64,000 nt of DNA from Paraphaeosphaeria minitans (Eukaryota; Ascomycota; Dothideomycetes; Pleosporales; Didymosphaeriaceae), in contig WJXW01000014.1 of assembly GCA_015832175.1 (NCBI GenBank), forward strand, positions 496,001 to 560,000, read 5' to 3'. The first letter of the stretch is position 1, and every line of letters begins with the position of its first letter. The translations under genes and the position numbers were made by a program. Under the pieces are notes generated by a model. That model worked only from the letters and a program-made list of their open reading frames with translations. It did no database searches and was not told where the DNA came from. This document shows positions 1,544-49,500 of this stretch, in pieces.

Positions 1544-2430
1544 TACTAACCACTTGATAGAGATAGGTCCCGCAACCGGCAATTAGGTTGCGATACCGTT
1601 TGGTCAGATGCGGAATATATCGGCTCCCGCTATTATGATTACGCCGCCGTCGCCTAAGAATAAGTCTAATCCTCCTGATAAATCTGGTAGATTCTTGTTT
1701 AGGCGGCTGGACTGGCGAATGGGCTACAAGTGCCCCGGTAAGGACTAAATGCCTCGCCCAGGGAAGTATGTTGATAATTGCCAGCAGGGCTTGGTCCCTC
1801 CCAGATCTTGGTTGGCTTGCTACTGCGGCCGGCCGCGCTATCTACAGCGCCCTACCTTACTGGCAGACGTCCTGGGGTACGCTCACCAGTTTCAGATAAT
1901 CGTTCCCACAACCTAACTGTATCAACAGGAGGATGTCGAACAAGACTCTGAGCAGGAGCTTGAGCAGTGTGGTAGCATTTGCGAGCAGAATCTCACCGAC
2001 GAAATGCCCCTTGAGTGAATATTCTCTTGAGTTGCAGCTGCCGACATGCTTTTGAGCAAGTCGCTTGGAAGCTTCAAAGATTTTTTGAGGGTGTTTTGGG
2101 AATTGACGTGGTTTTCGACTCCCCTTTCCATACTACAGGCACCTGTGGGCGCTTCACTATAGTCTTTTTCGACTCTAGCATTCCAAAATCCCCAGTACTA
2201 TAGGTAGACGAGGCGAAAGAATATGCGTGCGAGACTCTAATTGCACTATCACAAATGTGGACAAGCTGTTCCAACCTAGCTGAATCGAGTTGGTGCTCAG
2301 TGAATGTACTCTTAGCCTTATTTGCGTGTGCAGCACTCGCGGTCAAGCTATACTTAACCCGCACTTGCTCTCGTCTGCAGCCACTCGCACCTCAACTTCT
2401 CTGGGACAAGATCTGCTGTAGCTCATCAAT
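1544..2430. other. No gene seen
   Basis: Only short, mutually overlapping frames occur. No repeat or RNA gene is visible. Confidence 0.4.
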
Positions 2431-3645
2431 ATGGCATCGAACGCAAGCAAATCAAACCCAGCAAACACCCTCCCGCAAACCGCGTGCTCTTCTTCCTCAA
2501 ACGCCGCGCCCGTACCTCCCACGGACGATCTGGACGGCACGCCAACGCGCTCCTCCCTCTTGACCGGATACTCTCCCATTTTCACCGTCTCTCCGCAGAC
2601 ATCCCCCATCCTGTTGCCGCCCATCTACCGCGAGCTCAACGACCCCCGCACTACTATCCGCTTCACATGGCGCATTGATAGCCCCACTACGTTCCCAAGC
2701 GTGTTTCCGTTGCCAGGCGTGGTTCCAGCGACGCCCCGGATCAAGACCTTCACGCCGGTGACGGACCAGGAGTTGAATGGGATTGAGCCAATCTTCCAGG
2801 TTTCGGAGCAGAGCGTGAATCTTGATGGTGGAGTTGAAGGGCGATTGATGATTGACCAGAACACACCGTTTCTTGTGCGGGGATATGTGGAGATGGGGCG
2901 GCAGCAGTCAGGCCCGCTTCATGCCTCCCAATGCCACAAATATCAAGACCGAACGAACTGGGGACCGGCGACCACAGCTCCTCCGCCCGTCCATAGAGCG
3001 CCTGGTGCTACAAGTAACATGTCAGCCTTCGACGCGCCTACCGGTTACCATTACCAAAAGCGCCTTGCCACCATCCCCGAGGACAACACCACACCTTTCG
3101 GTCTAAACACGCGCTTCCAGAACGCACCCAACGCCTCAAACGGCATGGCAACCTTCGCATCGCCCACCGCCTATTCGTACCAGCACCCGCTTGCGCCCAT
3201 CCCTAGCGGCCACCCCTACCTCTCTGCCGCAGGCAACGCAGCTCCTGCACAGAGCATGCCAAACCTCAACCCATACAGCGACAATAAGGCCCAGCACCAA
3301 TATCACTCCCACGTCGCTCCAAACCCCGCGTACCTCTTAAACACCAACCCCACCCCTCCACAAGCTCAGACGCCGCCTCCCAACCGCTGGCCGCTACACA
3401 CTCCCACCGCCGCCGATGTGCGCAAAGGCACCGCTGCCATCGACTCGCCGCACTGGGAGGACGCAGAGGTGCAAGAATGGGTTGGGGGAGGAGGTGAGGA
3501 GGTGTTTCATGGAGGAGAGAGTACCGCAGTGCATCGATTCAAGCAGAAGTCGATACCGTATGAGGGAGAGGGCGACGCAGAGGACTGGGTTGAAGGCAAC
3601 TCTAGTGCCGCCGTGGACTCTGGCGCTGCAGCAACCGGCAACTAG
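2431..3645 (+). CDS. Proline/serine/threonine-rich hypothetical protein, probably C-terminally truncated
   Basis: An uninterrupted 404-codon frame starts with ATG at 2431. The first 60 residues are Ser/Thr/Pro-rich (SNPANTLPQTACSSSSNAAP). A more conserved-looking core around residues 60-150 follows (PIYRELNDPRTTIRFTW, FLVRGYVEMG). After that comes a low-complexity tail with two related motifs (TGYHYQKRLATIPED and TAYSYQHPLAPIPSG). No signal peptide or membrane segment is seen, so an intracellular disordered protein is likely. The end (KSIPYEGEGDAEDWVEGN) is echoed immediately after the TAG stop in the same frame (TSIPFEIEGEEEDWVQEK), and that frame then runs to another TAG at 3742-3744. The gene may therefore have been 32 codons longer. 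I do not recognise the family. Confidence 0.55.
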   Translation: MASNASKSNPANTLPQTACSSSSNAAPVPPTDDLDGTPTRSSLLTGYSPIFTVSPQTSPILLPPIYRELNDPRTTIRFTWRIDSPTTFPSVFPLPGVVPATPRIKTFTPVTDQELNGIEPIFQVSEQSVNLDGGVEGRLMIDQNTPFLVRGYVEMGRQQSGPLHASQCHKYQDRTNWGPATTAPPPVHRAPGATSNMSAFDAPTGYHYQKRLATIPEDNTTPFGLNTRFQNAPNASNGMATFASPTAYSYQHPLAPIPSGHPYLSAAGNAAPAQSMPNLNPYSDNKAQHQYHSHVAPNPAYLLNTNPTPPQAQTPPPNRWPLHTPTAADVRKGTAAIDSPHWEDAEVQEWVGGGGEEVFHGGESTAVHRFKQKSIPYEGEGDAEDWVEGNSSAAVDSGAAATGN

Positions 3646-3744
3646 GAGACGTCGATACCGTTCGAGATAGAGGGAGAGGAGGAGGACTGGGTTCAGGAGA
3701 AAAGTGATGGGATAGTCGAGGTGTGGGCGAGGCAGGGGTCGTAG
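3646..3744 (+). pseudogene. In-frame 3' extension after the stop (second copy of an acidic repeat)
   Basis: These bases continue the frame of the upstream ORF beyond its TAG. They encode a near-copy of its last repeat: SIPYEGEGDAEDWVEG becomes SIPFEIEGEEEDWVQE. The coding-like conservation suggests either a recent nonsense change or stop read-through. Confidence 0.4.
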
Positions 3745-4067
3745 GAGAGCAAGCTGGTGTTAATTTGGCGCTGCAACAACTAGGGTGGTGCCACCGCTGG
3801 TGCCGGTTGGTAGATCTTATGTCTATCGCCTCGGTCTTCGGACCGCCGGCAACTGGGCTGACGAGTCTGCTTGGATAAGGATGAATGGGGGCATACGTTT
3901 GTGATTGACTTTCGGCACGATTTTGAAAGAATACACGGACTTTCGGCGACGCACAAACATGGAGAGTTACAGTCTGAATAGGGAGATAGGATGTTCTGGG
4001 ACGCTAAGGGAAGATCCTCATATATATGGTTCGCATAAAGTCTAGTAGCGATTTAATTGTTTATTTC
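3745..4067. other. No gene seen
   Basis: Intergenic stretch at the 3' ends of the convergent ORF and xylanase genes. Nothing else is recognisable. Confidence 0.5.
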
Positions 4068-5546
<1,479 letters not shown>

Positions 5547-7238
5547 GATTCCCGTTGCCAGTCGGGGTTCCAATCAATTCAAGACAATGCAGCAAGGATC
5601 AATCGTAAAAGCCAAGCTCGTTATACCAATGTACCACCAATCTCTCATTGTCCAGAGAAAGGCCACTACGACTGTTTGGTCTAGGCCCTGATACCTAGCT
5701 CTTGCCCAACCATGTCTGTCAGCAACAGACAGATATCCAGACCGAGCGTGGCGCGCGGTCGACAACCCGGTTTTCGCAACGGAGAATTTCGATCCAGCCT
5801 AGTTCAGACTGCCATTTCCCTAAACACGCTGGCGTTTAATATAGGGAAGATTGGCATTTTCGGTGGGCGAAATTACCTACTCCCATGATGAGAGCCGTGC
5901 AATGTATTCGAAGCAGGCAATCCTCCGTCCGCTGGACGAGGAGGCGTGACAGTATCGCAACACTGATTGAAGCTGTAGTTTGTTGTGGCAAGAGGCCTAG
6001 TATTTGGAAAGTGAGAATTGCTCTAGCTGATGGAGGATGCGGATGCGATGAGAGGAACCGCGGTGCGCTTGGTGGACCGCACGAGTCAGGTGCGATGAAA
6101 CTTGGCTTGGCATCTAGGTTTGTGGGGAACTGGGGAACTCGAGACCACAACCGTCAGGCCACGCGCTCCGCACATTTGATTGCAAGTACCACTCGCCTGT
6201 TTCCCTTTCTAGTAATCTCGCTGTTGCTTTCCTCAGGGAGCGTTCGCCTTACGCCAGGCGATTGTCGTTCATAGGACGTCCGAAGCGTCTCCCCGCGGAC
6301 TCGTCTGCCACCGGCGATCTGCCAGCCAGCAAGGGTGGACCCCATAGGTACGCCGCTGCATGCATCGATAGTTTCAATGCGCGGAAGTCACCATGTAGCC
6401 GCTTCGCTGGACAAATACAGACAGTTCCCACCCGACCCCAACATAGACGAGCGTCGCCGCCTCCCTTTTTTCCGTCTCTTCTCGTGCGTGATCCTTCGAA
6501 GCGATCGATGCCAATGTGCGAAGATGCGGGTCCCCGGGCCGTCGCAAGACTACCTCCGGCTCTTACGCGTACACCTGCACACTTGTCTTGAACGAATGAT
6601 GGTTGCAAGCACCGACGGAAGATTCACTAGGTAGACCAAAGGAACCGCTGCCGGATTTCCGCAAACCTCAATCTTCAGGATATCAAGTAGGCTTGAATCG
6701 ACAACTCGCGAAACACTGCGTACATACCATCGTGCCCTTGAACCCCACTTCGAACCCCACTCCAGCAAGTGCACGCATTTTGACCAAGATGGACGCTCTG
6801 TTAGAGATACGAGTTCAGGTTGGCTTCTCTGCGTGACGAAATCCCACCTGACTTCAATGGCAGTCATGACACCATTGATGTCTATGCGATATCTGCTTCC
6901 AGTCATGATCGAGCTGGAGCCTCTTACAGCCTCTGTGGGAGTATGAAGACGTTGATGTCATTTCCCAAAGACTTAGAGCCTAGAACTCCGTCCTGAAAGT
7001 GATTACCTACTTGCGTGCTAGTTATGTAGGAGACTTGACGGTCGTGATTATGCGTTCATATGGGACGGGGTGTTACTAAAACGTGGAAGTTATATTGCTG
7101 TTTCATTTACCCGACCGAGGACACCTAGACAGGTTCGCTTCGAGAGACAACAAAACCTACCACTCAGCTCGATTTACTTGGATGTTGCAATCCAATGCGA
7201 GATTCGTATTCGCTATCTTGACCGTACATTAGGTGTCT
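5547..7238. other. No gene seen
   Basis: About 1.7 kb upstream of both flanking divergent genes. Only short conflicting frames are present, and no repeat family or RNA gene is recognised. Confidence 0.45.
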
Positions 7239-9734
7239 ATGCACCAGCGGAAGAACCTAAGAAAAGCTCGCCTTGCAGATCCAACCCCGATTCGTCCACT
7301 ACGGCCTCCCGTTCTTCGTCAGGTGATCTCAGATTCCATCTACCAGGTCATCAAGGCCAGCATGGTTTCATTTGCTGGAGTCAACAACACATACGAAGAG
7401 GTACCCGACCTAGCCAAGAAGTTCATCAACGATGCATCAAATGAAACGGGGCAACGACCTAAGTCTAAAGTATCACGGGGTACCCTAGTTCGGACCCACC
7501 AACAACATCTCAAGCTTCTAAGCGAAGGTAGCGTGCCCGTTCGCAGCTTGGTCCTACCCAAGCCGTATCCCCCAGCACGCGGCTGGTTTGCGGCAACGTC
7601 AACGAAGACTGTAAGTATCAATGCCCTTGTCGTAAAAGTCCTTTACGAATACTATACTAGGTCCACCTTGGCGATCTTCAAATAGACAGCAGAGACAGGA
7701 GTGCGGTTCTCCTGCTCCGTACCGTAACGGCCCCCTACGTCTGGTCTTCTACGGTCACGGTCGCAGAGGATGAGACAGGGGATGTTACTAGGCTGACTGT
7801 TTGCAATCTCGAAGATAATGTCGTCGATCCCATCGTGACTGAAGGGGCTATTGTCGCGGTAAGACAGCCCTGTTGGACAAGATTGGTGGATGGAGGATAC
7901 CATATTCGTGTCGACCACCCTTCAGACCTTGTCTTACTTCAACCATACGATGACCTTGTTCCTGAAGCATGGAAGGACGACGATGGCAAGGCTTCCAATG
8001 GAGACGCGGCACAGTGTAAAAGAGATGGCGACAAGATGTTTCTGAAGAAGCGCTTCCGCCAAGCACTCGAGCTGTAAGTACCGTGACAGATACCCCTTGG
8101 CCCTGACTAATCCAGCAAAGCTATACCAAGGGTCTACAATATGTCTCCACCACTCCGGATTCAGTTGTTGAAATCGACTTGTATCGTAAGCGCTGTGGCG
8201 TCAGTATAGTTCTTCTTCGCCTGGACGATGCAGCCAAAGACCTATCCGAGGCGATAGCGTCCCACGCTCGCTCTACGCCCGACCTCTCATCCTCCGAACT
8301 GGCAGACGTATCAGTTGTCAAATCTTGGCTTCGAAGTCGTAGTACCGAAGATTCACTACATATCTCATCCAGGATCCCTCGTCCCCTCAAGGAACTGGCA
8401 GTCAGGATCAAGTTCGATATCGGCATCAACCAAACCACCCCGGAATATAATTTCTCGGTGATATCAGCTTATGTAGGACCCTTGACTTTGCACGTTGACG
8501 CTGCGAACTACCTTAACGACACTGAAGTTCGAGAGACAGGTTCCCACGGCCGTGGCATATTCGCAAAGAAAGACTTCAAGGAAGGCGACCTGATCTGCGC
8601 GGAGAAAGCATTCGTGCTGCCAGGATATTTCATGCAAGACCGCAACAGCGACTGCCTGCTGTACAGTCTGGATGACGGAACCGCCGCATCAAGACCAGGT
8701 GCCTGGCTTTTCAAAGAGCTGGTGCAGAAGTTGAGGTGGAATCCCAGCCTGCGCAAAGAGTACTTTGACATGAGTGATGGGGGGTACTGGCAAGAGCATG
8801 GATGGGAACTAGCTGGAGACGAAGAGTTACCAGTCGACATGTACGCCTTGTTTCTTCAACGATGGCATTTATATTGATACCAGGCAGATTTCGCGTTGAA
8901 TATATCCGCCGCCTCAACTGCTTCTCCGCGCCAATTCGTTCCTCGGATCTCCTGAACCAACCGCCGAATTCGAACCCCGAGCTCCGCAATGGCTTCTGGA
9001 CGCACGGCTCGTACGCGAACCACTCTTGTCTGCCAAACTCGATACGCGCCTTTATCGGCGATCTCAGGTTTTTGCGCGCTGCACGGGATATTCCGGCAGG
9101 GGAGGAGATTACGAATCAGTATGTGGCGCCTGACATCGACATTGACGAACGACAAGAGAAGCTGCGAACGACTTGGGGATTCGAGTGCGATTGTCAGCTC
9201 TGCGTCACAGACGGCAGCGTCAGTCGAGACACGAGAAAGGAGCGGCTGAGGCAGTTTGAAGAGCTCAAGAACACGGTCATGAAATTGGGCGAGAAAGGCG
9301 CCCCCACGATAACCTCGTTGAAGAAGATTGCCCGCGCACTCCGCGAGATAGAAGCACTCTACTCACTTTCTAGTCCTGAAGGGCAAACCGGAGAAGATCC
9401 TTACGCCACGCTCCCTCGTCTCGCGTTAGTCCATCCCACGCTCTTCTTGACTGAAGCCTGGCGCAGCGTCAAGAATGTCGACCGCACAATCGAATACGGG
9501 CTCAAGCTGCTGCGCAATTTTGGCATCGTTATCAGAACCGAGGGAGGGAAGTTGGAGACGGTTCACAACGCAGGCTTCGTCAACGTCGAAACTGTCCGCG
9601 CGCTGAACTACCTAGCTGAGGGTTATACGTCCCGCGGCGAGGAGCAGCTTGCTCATCAATGTCGAGAAAAAGCTAGGCTGTGGTATATCATCATCACAGG
9701 CTCTGAAGTAGGCGCGGAGCAGTTTTTCTCATAG
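7239..9734 (+). CDS. SET-domain protein with TPR repeats (SMYD-like lysine methyltransferase family)
   Basis: Four exons join in frame (introns 7611-7660, 8074-8120, 8841-8887) to give 783 residues. The ATG at 7239 follows an in-frame TAG, which fixes the start. The N-terminal third has a fungal-specific region (AVLLLRTVTAPYVW, VAEDETGDVTRLTV). TPR-like helices begin near residue 235 (GDKMFLKKRFRQALELYTKG). A split SET domain follows: TGSHGRGIFAKKDF near 400, INCFSAP-like RRLNCFSAP near 515, the S-adenosylmethionine-site motif YANHSCLPN near 546, and the post-SET cysteines WGFECDCQLC near 597. No MYND finger is seen. The fold predicts protein-lysine methylation, but the substrate is unknown. 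The first intron has the perfect donor GTAAGT and the second a CTGACTAA branch site. Confidence 0.88.
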
Positions 9735-11185: not shown

Positions 11186-11367
11186 GTAAGTCTTCTCTCC
11201 TCTCCTCCTTCCCTCGTCTTCGCGGGCGTGATAAAAACAGCTTGAGTCTATCGACCCCTGGTCAACGTTGTCTCTCCCTAGAAAGACGGCCATGCAGACA
11301 ACAAGGCGGCCTTAGGGCCAAATCTCTGAACACCGCTCTCTCCTCACCTTTGCTCTCACACTTACAG
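11186..11367 (+). other. Candidate first intron of the array locus
   Basis: It starts GTAAGTC and ends CACACTTACAG, like the downstream elements, but the inner sequence is unrelated and the terminal complementarity is only about seven bases. Confidence 0.4.
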
Positions 11368-11856
11368 CGACCTCAACTGACAGAGCGCACGCAGCCAGTC
11401 GTTTACAAGGCTTCGAGTGGCAGTCGCCCGTTAGTTCCGAATCACTGACAAGTACTGCCATGCTCTATCCCCTTACCCACTGCCTAACATGATGATACTC
11501 CCTGCGAATGACGGCGTCCTAGTAGTTACTGCTGGAAGTAACGCGCAGCCACTGAGGCCTATTCCCTTCACTCACTTTCACAAACTCTCTGCGCTACTTT
11601 CGCTGACATTGGCAAGCAGAAGCTTATGACGCTAAGGCATGTAGCCGGCCCTGGCCACGATTTGTACTTCGCCGCCTTGCGCACCTCCGTGGCCTATGAC
11701 AATCACACCATCGCGACCTGAAGCTCTCCGCGGCTGGCGATGTCTCTTCAACCCGCTGAGGCTTCTCTCCCTCGTCTGCAGCCGTTCATTTCTCGGATAC
11801 TGCCGACTTGGGCGCCGGTGTGCACCAGCTTGTTTAAGACAAGTTCAACGAAGCAT

Positions 11857-12310
11857 CGCTTCGCTTCAGTAAGGATAACCCTTCCACTACTTCAAGCACT
11901 TATGAGTGAAACAACCATTCTTCGACGGCCACTGAATAGTTCATGCTGGACAACCATGGGGCTGGTCAAGCAGGACAGCTGTCTTCTGAGGGTATCATCT
12001 ACTGCATTTCGCGTTTTCACTTCACTGCAGAACATGGCTGACTTCAGACTCCAAAGCAGCGTCTGTTACACAAAACCAACATTCTCCAATCGCTTCAGTA
12101 AGTACAATCCTCTCATCATTCGAAGCACTCATGAATGAATTAAACATCCTTCGACGGCCACTGAACAGACGGATCATGTGGACAGCGATGGAGCTGGTCA
12201 AACTGGACAGCTATCTTCTGAGGGCATCACTTCTTCTGCATCTCGCATCTTCAGCTTTTCCCTGAGCGTCGCTGACTTCAAACGTCAGAGTCTGTTCGCC
12301 CTCACACACA
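11857..12310 (+). repeat. Two-copy tandem duplication of about 230 bp with intron donor
   Basis: Copy 1 starts near 11857 and copy 2 near 12087. Both begin TCGCTTCAGTAAG and share CTTCGACGGCCACTGAA, GGAGCTGGTCAA / GGGGCTGGTCAA, and GACAGCT(G/A)TCTTCTGAGGG. They then share GCATTTCGC / GCATCTCGC and GCTGACTTCA. Each carries a GTAAG donor at its start (11869 and 12098), so exon end and intron were duplicated together. Confidence 0.75.
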
Positions 12311-12389: not shown

Positions 12390-12642
12390 GTAGGTCCAGC
12401 AGCCACCTGTGGTCACCCCTCCGGGCTCAGTGACGGCTGCCCCACTTCTCTCCATAAGTGAGCGGCAGTATATACTGCGCCCTACATCAAAAGCAGGCTG
12501 GCTCCGACAAATTTCGGCGTAGGGTCAACGCCCTTTGACGTGTGCATTAGGCCCGGGACTTAATCTCGCGAAGGGAGGAACCCAGTTTGCGACATCTTGC
12601 CACACGTGCCAACCGCTTGAACGCGTGCTGACTGGACCACAG
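12390..12642 (+). repeat. TIR intron element 1
   Basis: Begins GTAGGTCCAGCAGC and ends GTGCTGACTGGACCAC + AG. The ends are near inverted repeats. The interior diverges from later elements. Confidence 0.6.
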
Positions 12643-12751
12643 GGCTCTCCAACCATGTCTTCGATGGTTCATTCTTCGGACGCCTTTGCTAGCCGCATTC
12701 TCTCGCGGCATCTACCATATCCATAGCCTTATCGGCTAGATCTCTCTTAAG
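12643..12751 (+). other. Unique segment between elements 1 and 2 with stops in all frames
   Basis: This 109-nt putative exon contains in-frame stops in every frame. If a protein is made downstream, this lies in its 5' leader, or it ends an upstream short ORF. Confidence 0.45.
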
Positions 12752-12861
12752 GTAAGTCCAGCAGCTGGCTGTGGTAACGGGTTCCCCTTCCTCTTCGCCC
12801 CCACTGCCCGGGCTTGGTACCACGCGTACAAATGATCGAATGGCTTGCTAACTGATCTTAG
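12752..12861 (+). repeat. TIR intron element 2 (short)
   Basis: Begins GTAAGTCCAGCAGCTGG and ends TTGCTAACTGATCTTAG. At 110 bp it is about half the length of the others and lacks their internal core. Confidence 0.5.
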
Positions 12862-12892
12862 ATACTGTGAAGTACACAGCATTTCCTTCTCG

Positions 12893-13177
12893 GTAGGTCC
12901 TCAGCAATGCTCTTCACATACATTCTTCTCTTCCAGGGTACCTATCAGAGGCTGGTACATAAAGACCCCTTGGTACTGGCTTTATATGGGCCCTAAATTA
13001 AGCCAACCCACCGCGATGCTTGGCTGGTCATTTCACACTGACTGCTGCGTGTCACTCTGCCGGCGGGTGTAGGTTGAGTGTCAGCATGCCTTTATGCCTT
13101 GTCCATGGCTGGAGGCGCTCTCACCAAAGCCTCGCACATTCACAGTATCTGAACAGCTTTGCTAACTGGACCTACAG
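12893..13177 (+). repeat. TIR intron element 3
   Basis: Begins GTAGGTCCTCAGCA and ends GCTAACTGGACCTAC + AG. The unusual GTAGGTCC start is matched by GGACCTAC at the end, a compensatory change relative to GTAAGTCC/GGACTTAC. A smaller intron inside it (from 12893 to about 12936) is an alternative. Confidence 0.65.
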
Positions 13178-13248
13178 ACTTCGTACACCGCCTTGATTCG
13201 TTGCTTCTATCAACTACAGGCTCAGCCCATCATCTTGGGCCTTCGACA

Positions 13249-13531
13249 GTAAGTCCGCAACTTCATCAATTTTTCCACACTGTGGCGGGTTGCCTTAATC
13301 GGCAGGGTATTGTACTGCGCGCGGTCGCATTGCACAACGCCACCGTGAGACTTCGGTCGTCGCATGGATAGTGCAGAGCCTAATGACGGCCCCGCCCAGA
13401 AAAACCTCCATGGCATGGGTTTGTCGAAGCATGCTTGCTTATCGGAAGTACTGTCCACCGTAATTCGCGTTCATGACATCGCTTCGCGACCAAACCTCCA
13501 CTTGGTATCGAAGTTGCTAACGGACTTACAG
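13249..13531 (+). repeat. TIR intron element 4
   Basis: Begins GTAAGTCCGCAACTTC and ends GAAGTTGCTAACGGACTTAC + AG. The terminal arms match each other (CAACTTC/GAAGTTG) although this arm differs from all other elements. Confidence 0.7.
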
Positions 13532-13623
13532 CTCGGTTTGCTCTCAGCTTCAGAGCATTCTTGTCCTAACGAAACGTCGGCAAACTATTCACGCACACTA
13601 TCTCCTCTCCAGAGCTCATATCA

Positions 13624-13849
13624 GGAAGTCCCTCACTACTTCACTTAGTGATTTTCTTGGCCGGTGGCGAGACGGCTAGCTCGTGCTTCCTTATAGCATA
13701 CGTAGTTCGCAGTTTGAAGTCGCCGGCCTAGATCAACCTCACGGCATGACTATGTTTGATCGTCCTTGCTTGTGGCAAGCGGCGTGATCTCTTTGCGTCA
13801 TGACATTCCTTCAGGATATATGCGCTGAACGTAGCTGACGGACTCACAG
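13624..13849 (+). repeat. TIR intron element 5 (altered donor)
   Basis: By alignment it begins GGAAGTCC where others have GTAAGTCC, so the usual donor GT is lost. A GT four bases on (13628) keeps the frame. It ends AGCTGACGGACTCAC + AG. The core GGCCGGTGGCGA / TCGCCGGCC is present. Confidence 0.65.
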
Positions 13850-13954
13850 ATTTAGCTCTGCGTACTCGCCGCTTTGCTCAACGACCTTCGCAGCGCTCGT
13901 TGCTCCGTTAAAGCCCCCCGATGGTCAGCGCTCTAACTTTCAGCAGTACGGCAT

Positions 13955-14194
13955 GTAAGTCCAACAGCTTCTTCCCATCTTCTGACTTCACTGGCCGGTG
14001 ACTATAGACGGCTAGATCGTGCTTCCTTGTAGCATTCGTAGTTCGGGCTTCTGAGTCGCCGGCCTAGATTAACCCTATGGCATGGGTGCGTTATAGCGTC
14101 GCAGCTTTGGCTCGGCGTGACAATAATTCGTTCACATGACATCCCAAATGCACAAAGACAAATTTTGGGAAAACGGAAGCTGACGGACTTACAG
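13955..14194 (+). repeat. TIR intron element 6
   Basis: Begins GTAAGTCCAACAGCTTC and ends GAAGCTGACGGACTTAC + AG. The internal stem is GGCCGGTGACT pairing with AGTCGCCGGCC. Confidence 0.75.
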
Positions 14195-14253
14195 ATTTAC
14201 TCCAGTGCAAAAGCGCACAAAGTCAGCAAGACGCTCATGCTGTTTCCCACCGG

Positions 14254-14471
14254 GTAAGTCCATCAGCTCCACTATCCTCAGCGCGGCCGGCGTGACGGTG
14301 CTCGTGCTTGCTCATAGCATAAGTAGTTCGCAGTTTTTTCTACGCCGGCCTAGATCGAATGACATGGAAGCGTCACGAGCGGTCCTGCCTGTGGCATGTA
14401 TCCCGACTGTAATCCGCGACCATGGCATCCTTTTGCAAGCCCTGTTTGGTAACGAGCTAATAGACTTACAG
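14254..14471 (+). repeat. TIR intron element 7
   Basis: Begins GTAAGTCCATCAGCTC and ends GAGCTAATAGACTTAC + AG. The internal stem is GGCCGGCGT / ACGCCGGCC, a covarying variant. Confidence 0.75.
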
Positions 14472-14525
14472 ATTGCTTCACTCCATCATCAAGGCGCCCA
14501 GTATCCGGGAACCTTTTCCCGAGTG

Positions 14526-14753
14526 GTAAGTCCATCAGCTCCAGCCTCAACATATGGCCGGCGACTAGATGAAGGCTTAGCTCATGCTTCCTTATAGCAT
14601 ACGTAGTTCGCAGTTCATAGATCGCCGGCCTAGATCGAATCGCATGGGTGCGTTGGAAGCATTCTCGCCTGTGGCGAGTATCGCGACTGTAATTCGTAGT
14701 CATGACATTCACTTGCTAAATCCAAATTTAGCAGGATGCTGACGGACTTACAG
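14526..14753 (+). repeat. TIR intron element 8
   Basis: Begins GTAAGTCCATCAGCT and ends GCTGACGGACTTAC + AG. The internal stem is GGCCGGCGA / TCGCCGGCC, with a second hairpin CTCGCC-TGT-GGCGAG. Confidence 0.8.
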
Positions 14754-14815
14754 ATAACTACGCACCATCCCAGAGACGTACAAGATCATGCGACATCGCC
14801 AATATGGTACCTATG

Positions 14816-15037
14816 GTAAGTCCATTAGCTCTATCATTCTCACCATGGCCGACGATGACGGCGTTTCCTCATAGCATATGTAGTTCGCAGTTTATTCCAT
14901 CGCCGGCTAGATTAACCTTATGGCATGAGTACGTTGGAAGCGTTCTCGCCTATGGCAAGTATCGCGACTGTAAGCCGTGGTTGTGACATCTCGATTTACC
15001 AAATTCTTACTTGGATCTGAAGCTAATCGACTTACAG
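14816..15037 (+). repeat. TIR intron element 9
   Basis: Begins GTAAGTCCATTAGCT and ends AGCTAATCGACTTAC + AG. The ATTAGCT/AGCTAAT arms covary relative to ATCAGCT/AGCTGAC elsewhere. Confidence 0.8.
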
Positions 15038-15090
15038 ATCGTAGCACCCCCATTTCTAGACGCTCGACAGCCAGCGACATCGTCCACATG

Positions 15091-15320
15091 GTAAGTCCAT
15101 CAGCTTCACCCTTCTCCGCATGGCCGGCGATGATGGCGCTCGTGCTTCCTCATAGCATACGTAGTTCGCAGTTAATTCCATCGCCGGCCAGATTGACCTT
15201 ATGGCATGAGTACGTTGGAAGCGTTCTCGCCTGTGTGGCGAGCATCGCGACTGTAATTCGAAATCATGACATCTCCCTTCCTTACACTCATGTTTGAATC
15301 TGAAGCTAATGGACTTACTG
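15091..15320 (+). repeat. TIR intron element 10 (altered acceptor)
   Basis: Begins GTAAGTCCATCAGCTTC and ends GAAGCTAATGGACTTAC, but the following AG is TG. The next AG (15333-15334) preserves the frame. The internal stem GGCCGGCGATG / CATCGCCGGCC is an 11-bp perfect match. Confidence 0.8.
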
Positions 15321-46520: not shown

Positions 46521-49500
46521 CTACACCGCCCTCCTCAGCACCGCAACACCTGAGTTGTCGATCGAGATCGTAGAAATAATAGTGCTGCCGCGGAGAGGGA
46601 TCCAGCCAGGCGCCACGAGGGAAGCTATCGAAGAGCGCGGCGCATCGGGTATAGTCGTCACCGTTACCGTTACTGTCTCTGTCTTTCGGGAGACGTTGGT
46701 GGGGAGGGGTGTGTGAGAGTGGGAGATGTGTGCTGAGCTGAGGAGGGGGGTTGTCGGAGAGCTTGGTGGTTTGGCTATGGTTGTGGTTGTTACTGTTACT
46801 GTTTTTCGGGGGGAATTGGTGGGGAGGGGTGTGTGGGAGGTGAGGGAGGCTATTGAAGAGCTCGGCGAGTTCGGCGCATGGACTACGGTCGTAACTGTTA
46901 CTGTCTTCCGGGAGGAATTGGTGGGGAGGGCTGTAGATGAGATGCGTGCCGAGGTTAGGGAGGCGATCGAAGAGCTCGGTGAGGCTATGACCGTGACTGT
47001 TACTATTTTTCGGGAGGAATTGGTAGGGAAAGTCGTGTGTGAGATGCGTGCTGATGCCGAGGTGAGGGAGCCGATCAAAGAGCTTGGTTCGGCTATGACC
47101 GTGGCTGTTACCGTTATCGCCTTTCGAGAAGAATTGGTAGGGAGGGTCGTTTGTGAGATGCGCGCAGTAGCCGAAAACTGTTTGGAGTTCGACTTGCCAG
47201 CAGTAGCTGAAGACTGTTTGGAGGTCGACTTGGTGCCAGAAGCGGACGGGTATTTGGAGTTGGACGTGGTGCCAGAAGCGAAAGGGTAGTTGGAGTTGGA
47301 CGTGGTGCCAGAAGCGAAAGGATAGTTGGAGTTGGACTTGCTCGCAATTGTCGAAGGGTCGGTCTTGCTCGACCCGCCAGCAGTGGCCGAGGAGTTGGCT
47401 GGTGGCTGGTCGTCCTCATGATCGTACCAAGCCGCAGTGAGATTGTTCCGTTCTTTATTCAGGCCGTCCTCGATGTCCGCTTCGATGCCCCGTTGCTGCC
47501 TTCCGAAGTCCGTGTTGGTAGTATCCCAACAATGCTTCCAGATGTTGACGTGATACATCAGTCCAGTCAGACCCTTGACGCCTGTCTTGATCCAGCTGGT
47601 ATCGATCTGGACGCTGCCAGGGAGATCAAGTCCAGCGAAAACGCCCACTCTGAGGTCTACTTCAACACCAACAGCGGTCTTGAAGTCGCCGCCGTCATGA
47701 CATTTCTTGTCGACATCTGTGAGCTGGTAGTCAGTGGTGGTGGCGAGATTGAGGGACAGAAGAAAGGTACTTACTTTCTTTTGTGGAAACCCTGAGTTCG
47801 AATCCTGGTGTTTCCGCTCTAGCATAGATACCCATCTGAAGAGTTGGCTTGAATCCAGTAGGGAAAGGCGCACGTAGAGCGACGGCATCCGTATCTCCGC
47901 TTGTGAACCCAGCTGCATGGCCGTTCTTGTGCCCCAAAAGATCAACTCCATCTCCCAAATCAGTGTCACCACTTTTGCTTGCACCTGAGCGCTTGCCTGA
48001 GCGCTTCCTGTCGCCTGATCCTCCCCCTTCACCTCCATCTACTGTTCCACCGTCATTTGGTACCCCAGCTCCAAAACTCAACGACACAGCTGGTTCGATG
48101 GCAAGCGTACCATCAAACTCCAGGTGTTCTGCACGGAAATTGGGCCTGGTCCACTTGACCTCACCATCAAATTTCGACTGGAATTTCTTGCCGTTCTTGC
48201 GTCCATAACCAGCGATCGAGCCTTTTGGTATGTGGGCCTCAATTCCAGGTAAAGTGCTACACAAACCATCAGTAGGCTTGTATTAAAAGCGTGGCGACCT
48301 GGTAACATACACATTGAACCTCCCCTTCATTGTGATGGAGGACCAGACAGCTAGGCCCATTCCGACCTAGGCCCCAAAACCGTTGACCTGTTTTGATCAG
48401 CCTGTCGTTCTCGGGCAGATATGAGAGCAACTTACACCTCCAAGATTGGGGAACTTCGTTTTAATGTCCGGACCTGTCGGAATCCTGGGAACGTCCCACT
48501 GGAGAGCATCGTCATCTATCAGAGGACCCGCCGAGCATCCAAACGTGCCGTAGGGATACAAGAACACAATGCAGAACCCCAGGAATCCCACCGTTCCCGC
48601 AAGCTCCGCTTGAAGCCGGATGGCCAGATCCTCCATCGCCTCGACTTCGACGTAGAAGTCGGCCATGGAGTTCTCGCCGAACATGTTTGTCATTGAGGAG
48701 TCAAAGCCGTCCTCTCCGCCATCCTGCAACAAGTCTGTCGCACCCTTGATGTTGAAGCTGATCACAGCCCTGACCTCGAGATGCACCTTTGCGTACGAGT
48801 CCACCAGCGTGATGTTGGGCCATGGTTCGCCGTGGCCATGGGTTGTCGTTATTGGCTTCCGGTTCTCGTCGGAGCCGTATGTCATCTCCCGACCGGGGTG
48901 GGTAGTTTGGTTCAGGTTGCCTTCGAAATCGATCGGCATGGGTATGGTGAAGCTGAAGCCGATCTTTTCGAGCCCATCCAAGACCTTTCCCAGCCCATCC
49001 ATTGTGAGATTTTTGACTTCGTCGATTATCTTGTCCGCATCGAGGTCGTCCGGATCTATTGGATTTTTTCGATTTTTTCCGGTAACTCATCACCATCTTC
49101 GAGAGTTTCTTTAGTTTCACTCAAGGGGTCTTCGCGCTTTGACAGACGCTCGGATATCCCAGCGTTCAGTCGTTGCGTGAGATAGAAGCGCGAGTCAGGA
49201 TGTCGCTGCTTGAGAGACGCAAGAGATCCGGTTAAAATGGTGACCGAGTGGGCTGCTTCAGCTTCGTACGGTCCAAAGCTCAGATCGTCCGCGGCAATCT
49301 CCATTGACAAGTTTGCGTCGTCGAAAATCGTATCCAGAGACCTGCGTGGAAGGTGAGCACGAGGGGAAACGTATTCCGGGTACGGAAAAAACACATACCT
49401 ATACACCGACCGGATATTGCGGCCCTCGTGGCACGATTCATCCTCGAGCACGAACAAAAGGCCAGGATTGTGCCACTCCTCTTTCGCAGCTTGATACACA

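Follow-up and report, generated by a model that had tools for sequence, protein, structure and literature searches.

What kind of locus strings together ten consecutive intron-like blocks, each of which begins like a splice donor and ends with a near reverse complement of its own beginning? We have pursued this question in a stretch of 64,000 nucleotides (nt) of Paraphaeosphaeria minitans, hereafter the window (C14:496001-560000), taken from a genome of 47.45 Mb in 30 contigs. The window is fungal: Pfam matches in the nine long open reading frames (ORFs) scanned include ferric reductase, RhoGEF and SET domains as well as a fungal transcription factor domain. No ORF of at least 150 aa was found on either strand between 9.74 and 16.22 kb, and inside this gap lie the blocks, E1 to E10 (12390-15320, all on the + strand). 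Our answer, held with fair rather than full confidence, is that the locus is a non-coding host gene for small nucleolar RNAs (snoRNAs) of the UHG/SNHG14 layout, with an H/ACA-type core per intron, and that it grew by tandem duplication and not from mobile introners. The first-pass annotation of this DNA had counted ten blocks of 110-285 bp, and the coordinates of E1-E10 bear out both the number and the lengths; the period of 270-300 bp that it gave holds for E6-E10 (starts 299, 272, 290, and 275 bp apart) but not for the other units.

The 5′ arm of a unit typically reads GTRRGTCC plus about seven bases, and the 3′ arm consists of CTRAY, which we take to be the fungal branch point, then typically GGACYTAC, and then AG. 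The motif GCTAAC stands ahead of the acceptor in two intron-like stretches that bear U14 elsewhere in this genome. Paired, the arms form a terminal stem of ca. 15-18 bp that encloses the interior, or core, of each unit, beginning at the donor G and taking in the branch point. The calculated energy of the end duplex is −22.3 kcal/mol in E1 (12390-12642; arms GTAGGTCCAGCAGCC and CTGACTGGACCACAG), −23.4 in E3 (12893-13177; GTAGGTCC and GGACCTAC), −24.1 in E4 (13249-13531; arms with CAACTTC and GAAGTTG) and, among the units with canonical ends, −26.6 in E6 (13955-14194), −17.8 in E7 (14254-14471), −26.3 in E8 (14526-14753) and −18.6 in E9 (14816-15037; ATTAGCT and AGCTAAT). The rule that every block runs from a donor-like start to a matching end followed by AG thus stands for most of them, but it fails in three: E2 (12752-12861), a short unit whose first 28 nt are 82% identical to E1, has a weak 3′ arm and pairs poorly (−13.8 kcal/mol); E5 (13624-13849) has the degenerate donor GGAAGT, starting with GG (−16.4 kcal/mol); and E10 (15091-15320) ends in ACTTACTG, with TG at the place homologous to AG (−26.0 kcal/mol). 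The consensus for donor, branch point and acceptor is kept in eight of the ten units.

The arms change together, as had been noticed at first sight. Cognate arms have a mean duplex energy of −21.5 kcal/mol vs. −17.1 for exchanged arms, and none of 20,000 permutations was as low, a figure that is not a clean probability because the copies are related (the arm of E5 was set one base early in this computation). Part of the pairing, ca. 6 bp, comes free of charge, since an ACTTAC acceptor can pair with the donor GTAAGT in any case, and the excess is due to the CC-GG step and the branch-point segment. For a background we paired consensus donors with branch point and acceptor segments taken from elsewhere in the window and from other loci of the genome. 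These 156 background pairs had a mean of −7.3 and a minimum of −14.8 kcal/mol, with none at or below −16, while nine of the ten blocks lie at or below −16.4, beyond all of them. The first-pass view of intron-like units whose inverted-repeat ends supply both splice sites is supported. The exception is E2, which falls inside the background range; in a separate background set of 68 pairs, one was as low as E2. A terminal stem as a general trait of snoRNA introns in this genome was considered and rejected: with ends picked by eye, the two U14-bearing stretches gave −4.3 and −2.6 kcal/mol, and a third, C/D-like stretch −11.2. As far as this sample reaches, the stem sets these units apart from introns, and from snoRNA introns, in general; terminal stems spanning the splice sites are unusual. 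Selection seems to maintain the pairing, because the arm is conserved beyond the donor consensus and the adjacent spacer is not.

What the stems enclose had been left out of the earlier description, which omitted the interior of the units and so missed an H/ACA-like core. A box H/ACA snoRNA has two hairpins, a hinge with box H (ANANNA) and an ACA 3 nt from the 3′ end, and nine of the blocks can be read in this way, eight of them through a relaxed descriptor and E3 only on inspection by eye. As a class such RNAs are stable, are bound by Cbf5, Nhp2, Nop10 and Gar1, have covarying pairs in their hairpins and carry a pocket that pairs with ribosomal or small nuclear RNA around a U. In the alignment E4-E10 form a single family, in which a GC-rich hairpin with lower stem GGCCGGCG/CGCCGGCC is followed by the hinge AGAT[CT][AG] (in E4, AGAAAA); then come a second hairpin and the string ATGACAT[CT] (ATGGCATC in E7, GTGACATC in E9), and the core closes with ACA plus 3 nt. 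The putative H and ACA boxes are AGATCA and ACATTC in E5 (core 13659-13808), AGATTA and ACATCC in E6 (13993-14144), AGATCG and a degenerate GCA in E7 (14285-14430), AGATCG and ACATTC in E8 (14556-14710), AGATTA and ACATCT in E9 (14847-14991) and AGATTG and ACATCT in E10 (15122-15274). The core of E4 (within 13249-13531; AGAAAA, ACATCG) has its 3′ half in common with E5-E10, whereas its 5′ half is different and longer. The interiors of E1 and E3 differ from those of E4-E10 and share only the arm motifs with them: the E1 core (ca. 12423-12597; H box ACATCA, ACA box ACATCT) is H/ACA-like but unrelated in sequence, and that of E3 (ca. 12936-13147; H box AAATTA) may be a third H/ACA-like kind, missed by both descriptors.

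The strict descriptor matched four of the ten units (E1, E5, E6, and E9), missing E10, against six places in the remainder of both window strands, and when the 4.5-kb array region was shuffled, two of ten shuffles gave one match each. The relaxed descriptor matched eight units (not E2 or E3) and 63 other places, with E10 the highest scoring of all 71. Given these six strict and 63 relaxed background matches, the H/ACA motif alone is weak evidence. A covariance model built from E5-E10 (model R1) had no match in the window outside the array up to an expectation value of 10, and it recovered E4, which had been left out of the model, at 5.9e-8. On free-energy folding, E1, E7, E8, and E10 each form two clean hairpins, and E5 comes close to this. 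In E5-E10 both partners vary in pairs 9, 10, and 11 of the first hairpin's lower stem. When pairs 9-12 are taken together, a post hoc choice, cognate arms form 15 of 24 pairs, and 20 of the 720 permutations, the cognate one included, do as well or better.

Several observations weigh against an H/ACA host gene. The folds of E3, E4, E6, and E9 depart from two clean hairpins (the 3′ half folds as two hairpins in E3 and E9, and is not one clean hairpin in E6), and six of the 11 relaxed-descriptor matches that score at least 36 lie outside the array. Three of the 39 predicted core pairs are compensatory, but the covariation term of RNAalifold is unfavorable (+2.12 for whole E4-E10, +0.98 for the cores), so that covariation lends the core structure modest support. 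The distance from the upper stem to the H box should be 14-16 nt; E1 conforms with 14 nt, whereas the fold of E3 leaves 11 nt, which would become 14 nt only on the opening of three weak pairs. In E7, E8, and E10 the H box is without its last A, the ACA of E7 is GCA, E2 is without a core, and one splice site is broken in E5 and in E10. No Rfam family reaches its gathering threshold over the window, and over 10.8-16 kb at an expectation value of 10 there were only four matches, all at chance level (4.9-9.8). In the search for pseudouridylation pockets on 18S ribosomal RNA (rRNA), only the 3′ hairpin of E9 among 19 hairpin settings beat all 20 shuffles, which is about chance. Besides, 16 of 20 H/ACA genes described for Neurospora are intergenic and two intronic (PMC2780460).

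Protein-coding exons are not supported: the longest open stretch across the joined exons is 160 codons (P 0.06 by shuffling). The canonical donor, branch point and acceptor of eight units, together with the gap in long ORFs, would be compatible with the layout of a UHG-like host. Its transcript might begin further upstream, where an intron-like stretch (11186-11367) and a 229-bp direct repeat pair (11861-12284) make 11186-12289 of the + strand a possible part of it. The repeat pair has GTAAG starts, acceptor-like ends and CTGACTTCA near these ends, and possibly represents two more units of the host gene. The three upstream intron-like stretches are without strong terminal stems (−6.4, −2.6, and −2.9 kcal/mol). 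In the same area, by eye, the ATGATGA ... CTGA spacing at 11489-11555 resembles a box C/D snoRNA.

Under this reading, RNA polymerase II would transcribe a non-coding host gene on the + strand covering at least ca. 12.3-15.4 kb, in which up to nine of the ten units would each have a single box H/ACA-type snoRNA in their intron. The spliceosome would most likely excise the introns, using the donor GTAAGT and the branch point CTRAY ca. 10 nt ahead of AG, and the excised intron would be debranched and then trimmed back to a small nucleolar ribonucleoprotein (snoRNP) of the H/ACA type. Splicing, debranching and trimming is the route described for other intronic snoRNAs (PMC12508059), and the best-supported one for these cores. 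Because donor, branch point and acceptor are all hidden within the terminal stem, splicing requires that this stem be open; its formation would either compete with splicing or follow debranching. We infer that the stem arises in RNA that is still unspliced or already debranched, where it could affect the timing of splicing, the protection of the ends or release by a nuclease.

The same stem allows another view of processing, in which RNase III or some other double-strand nuclease cuts it and so releases the H/ACA RNA, while the splice sites would be relics or would be used in competition. Around each core there is indeed a covarying stem, E5 and E10 retain their arms despite one broken splice site, and fission yeast Pac1 is described as cleaving hairpins of at least 20 bp with small bulges tolerated (PMC12508059). 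However, the stems here are shorter than 20 bp, the splicing consensus kept in eight units is needless for stem cutting alone, and in the account of the Hypoxylaceae introns symmetry was judged unnecessary for their removal (PMC8469720); we think stem cutting unlikely, though not strikingly so, as the main processing signal. Another doubtful proposal, offered tentatively, is that the stem is a processing switch that, with the donor paired to the branch point and acceptor of its own intron, keeps the intron off the spliceosome and doubles as a double-stranded release site, so that either splicing or stem cutting frees the H/ACA RNA, and that these RNAs might also act on early folding of 18S rRNA through a conserved apical stretch, which is complementary to 18S nt 83-92 and matches the U14 sequence found in this genome. 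At the other extreme, the array might be a plain satellite or structured repeat without any transcript function. A tandem period near 280 bp in E6-E10, the decay of E5, E7, and E10 and the missing Rfam match would suit a satellite, but one would hardly then find conservation confined to arms, core and apical motif beside saturated spacers, arms that covary (and lower stems that do so modestly), or the common splice-signal arms around the differing interiors of E1 and E3. We regard this as very improbable.

There remains the origin of the units. Fungal introner-like elements and symmetrical stwintrons, known from Hypoxylaceae and Capnodiales, are U2-type introns with terminal inverted repeats that span the splice sites (PMC8469720), and E1-E10 could be such elements, spread by insertion and landing repeatedly in one non-coding transcript. 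Nine of the ten units have terminal inverted repeats that carry the splice sites, and homology largely ends at these sites, with 20 of 21 exon pairs unrelated. However, introners should occur as many near-identical copies at different gene positions, and as DNA query over the genome E10 found five places, all in the array (E10, E9, E8, E7, and E5), and E3 only itself. The E10 query missed E4 and E6, so that copies ca. 70-75% identical can escape it and diverged ones elsewhere are possible. The 3′-arm pattern gave five exact matches in the 47.45 Mb, all in the array, and 28 with one mismatch (seven in the array; seven for a reversed control pattern); the 5′-arm pattern gave six, five of them in the array, and 62 with one mismatch (ten in the array; 37 for the control). 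The sole exact 5′-arm match outside, on C2, had no 3′-arm match near it among the matches listed. Neither E10, E3 nor the arm patterns thus revealed dispersed copies, within the limit on diverged copies just given, and by eye the 10-nt flanks of the ten units contain no direct repeat that could be the target-site duplication of a DNA-transposon-like introner. The kinship with mobile introners that the first-pass annotation had suggested is not supported. The arm motifs, but not the cores, are common to E1, E3, and E4-E10.

The pattern of conservation points the same way. Among E6-E10 the 5′ arm is 94.7% and the 3′ arm 84.1% identical, the core 72.5% and its 28 apical columns 86.8%, while the two spacers have fallen to 41.7% and 42.9%. 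After recent insertion of a mobile intron, which is disfavored for this reason, the spacers would be as similar as the remainder. The only related exons are the two that flank E9 (none of 500 shuffles was as good), which is what duplication of a whole unit predicts. The E5-E10 introns are 72-84% identical. We consider mobile introners quite improbable, and an old tandem duplication of the exon-intron unit as the likely origin of E4-E10, with arms and core kept by selection, from which saturated spacers beside conserved arms and cores would be expected. The exons and the intronic spacers would then have drifted, unlike the snoRNA core, the terminal stem and the splice signals, which would have been retained. 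A repeat of another sort, GTAGGTCCTCTAGCT (or GTAGGTCCTTTAGCT), recurs on many contigs (e.g., C1:24183, C3:37867, C5:2671477), apparently often near contig ends; it is perhaps subtelomeric and unrelated to the array.

How novel would a host gene of this type be? The first-pass annotation knew of no described locus of this form, which is too broad for the layout. In human SNHG14, a non-coding host gene (PMC5748676), 29 consecutive introns carry SNORD116 and 48 tandem introns SNORD115 (PMC11608373). The likeness lies in paralogous snoRNAs, one per consecutive intron of a host gene (PMC11608373); the difference is that they are box C/D-like there, whereas here the cores are H/ACA-like and the two ends of an intron can pair over its splice sites (as to SNHG14, terminal stems were computed for this array alone). 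Fungi also have multi-intron non-coding hosts with intronic snoRNAs, as described for the UHG-like clusters I-V of Neurospora and I-III across fungi, but these carry diverse box C/D snoRNAs instead of a duplicated H/ACA-like family (PMC2780460, PMC3596301). What stands of the claim is the combination, since no report of H/ACA cores together with splice-site-spanning stems was found in the open-licence literature searched.

The stem has its own precedents. The introner-like elements and stwintrons discussed above occupy many gene positions, with repeats of 45-55 nt in Hypoxylaceae, against a single locus, ca. 15-18 bp and an RNA-like core here, and in Hypoxylaceae the donor G, the branch A and the acceptor G are described as frequently unpaired (PMC8469720). 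The zipper stems of Saccharomyces also link the donor side of an intron with the branch-point side, but they lie inside the splice signals (PMC12350175), whereas here the signals themselves are paired. With the donor G as the first base of the 5′ arm and the branch point within the 3′ arm, the units fall outside the distances that define zipper stems (at least 10 nt from the donor and at least 20 nt from the branch point). If our reading is true, the locus would be a fungal, H/ACA-type equivalent of the SNORD116 arrays of mammals, and it lies in a genome marked by repeat-induced point mutation (RIP), a process that destroys long repeats. The fungal introner-like elements have raised the question of what role terminal inverted repeats play in introns, and the ten units, a series made by nature in which some splice sites are broken while the stems remain intact, offer a ready-made test of it.

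As to what the RNAs might guide, no rRNA target was assigned, the 18S match being at chance level. The 18S used in that scan was an inferred sequence, on which the 5′ hairpin of E7 gave no pocket; a weak candidate at yeast position 666 is common to the homologous 3′ hairpins of E4, E9, and E10. On the large-subunit rRNA the 5′ hairpin of E8 beat 20 shuffles, a weak test because that copy is damaged by RIP and its letters altered. The pocket scan of U2 and a yeast-like 5.8S, run without a shuffle control, gave nothing clear. For now the cores are orphan RNAs, as are six of 20 H/ACA RNAs described for Neurospora (PMC2780460).

The conserved apical stretch is complementary to 18S nt 83-92 over 10 nt in E5, E7, and E9 and 9 nt in E8 and E10, but not in E6, and this complementarity sits within a 10-nt string carried by both U14 genes of this genome. 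The region around 18S nt 83-92 is where U14 binds. However, shuffles attain 9 nt in 88 of 500 cases and 10 nt in 29 of 500, so the complementarity is a lead only. The two U14-like genes themselves, just under the Rfam cut-off, lie in intron-like stretches at C4:2365118-2365226 (L069) and C3:239328-239435 (L070), the latter with a second C/D-like stretch upstream.

The mark of RIP is read from an rDNA copy on C12 (L066, G000:C12:21500-31000; rRNA genes at 1707-7368). Compared with a yeast-like 18S (L068), it has 161 G-to-A and 131 C-to-T changes vs. 46 in the opposite directions, a pattern that we attribute to RIP. Its 5.8S is the only match to that gene in the assembly among the 39 of 1222 candidates that were scored. 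In Neurospora the lower limit of RIP is given as ca. 400 bp (PMC2780460), and the ca. 280-bp units, with introns of the identity reported above, may have escaped it, although adjacent units together exceed this limit. The comparison sequence L068 (BMQD01000062.1) comes from an assembly of Planomonospora parontospora and contains a yeast-like 18S, 5.8S, the beginning of 25S and a partial 5S gene; in a bacterial genome record this contig is probably contamination. A metagenome-assembled genome of Armatimonadota (L067) likewise contains a fungal-type 5.8S. Elsewhere in the window, at 46890-47337, tandem repeats of 108 and 36 bp overlap long ORFs on both strands.

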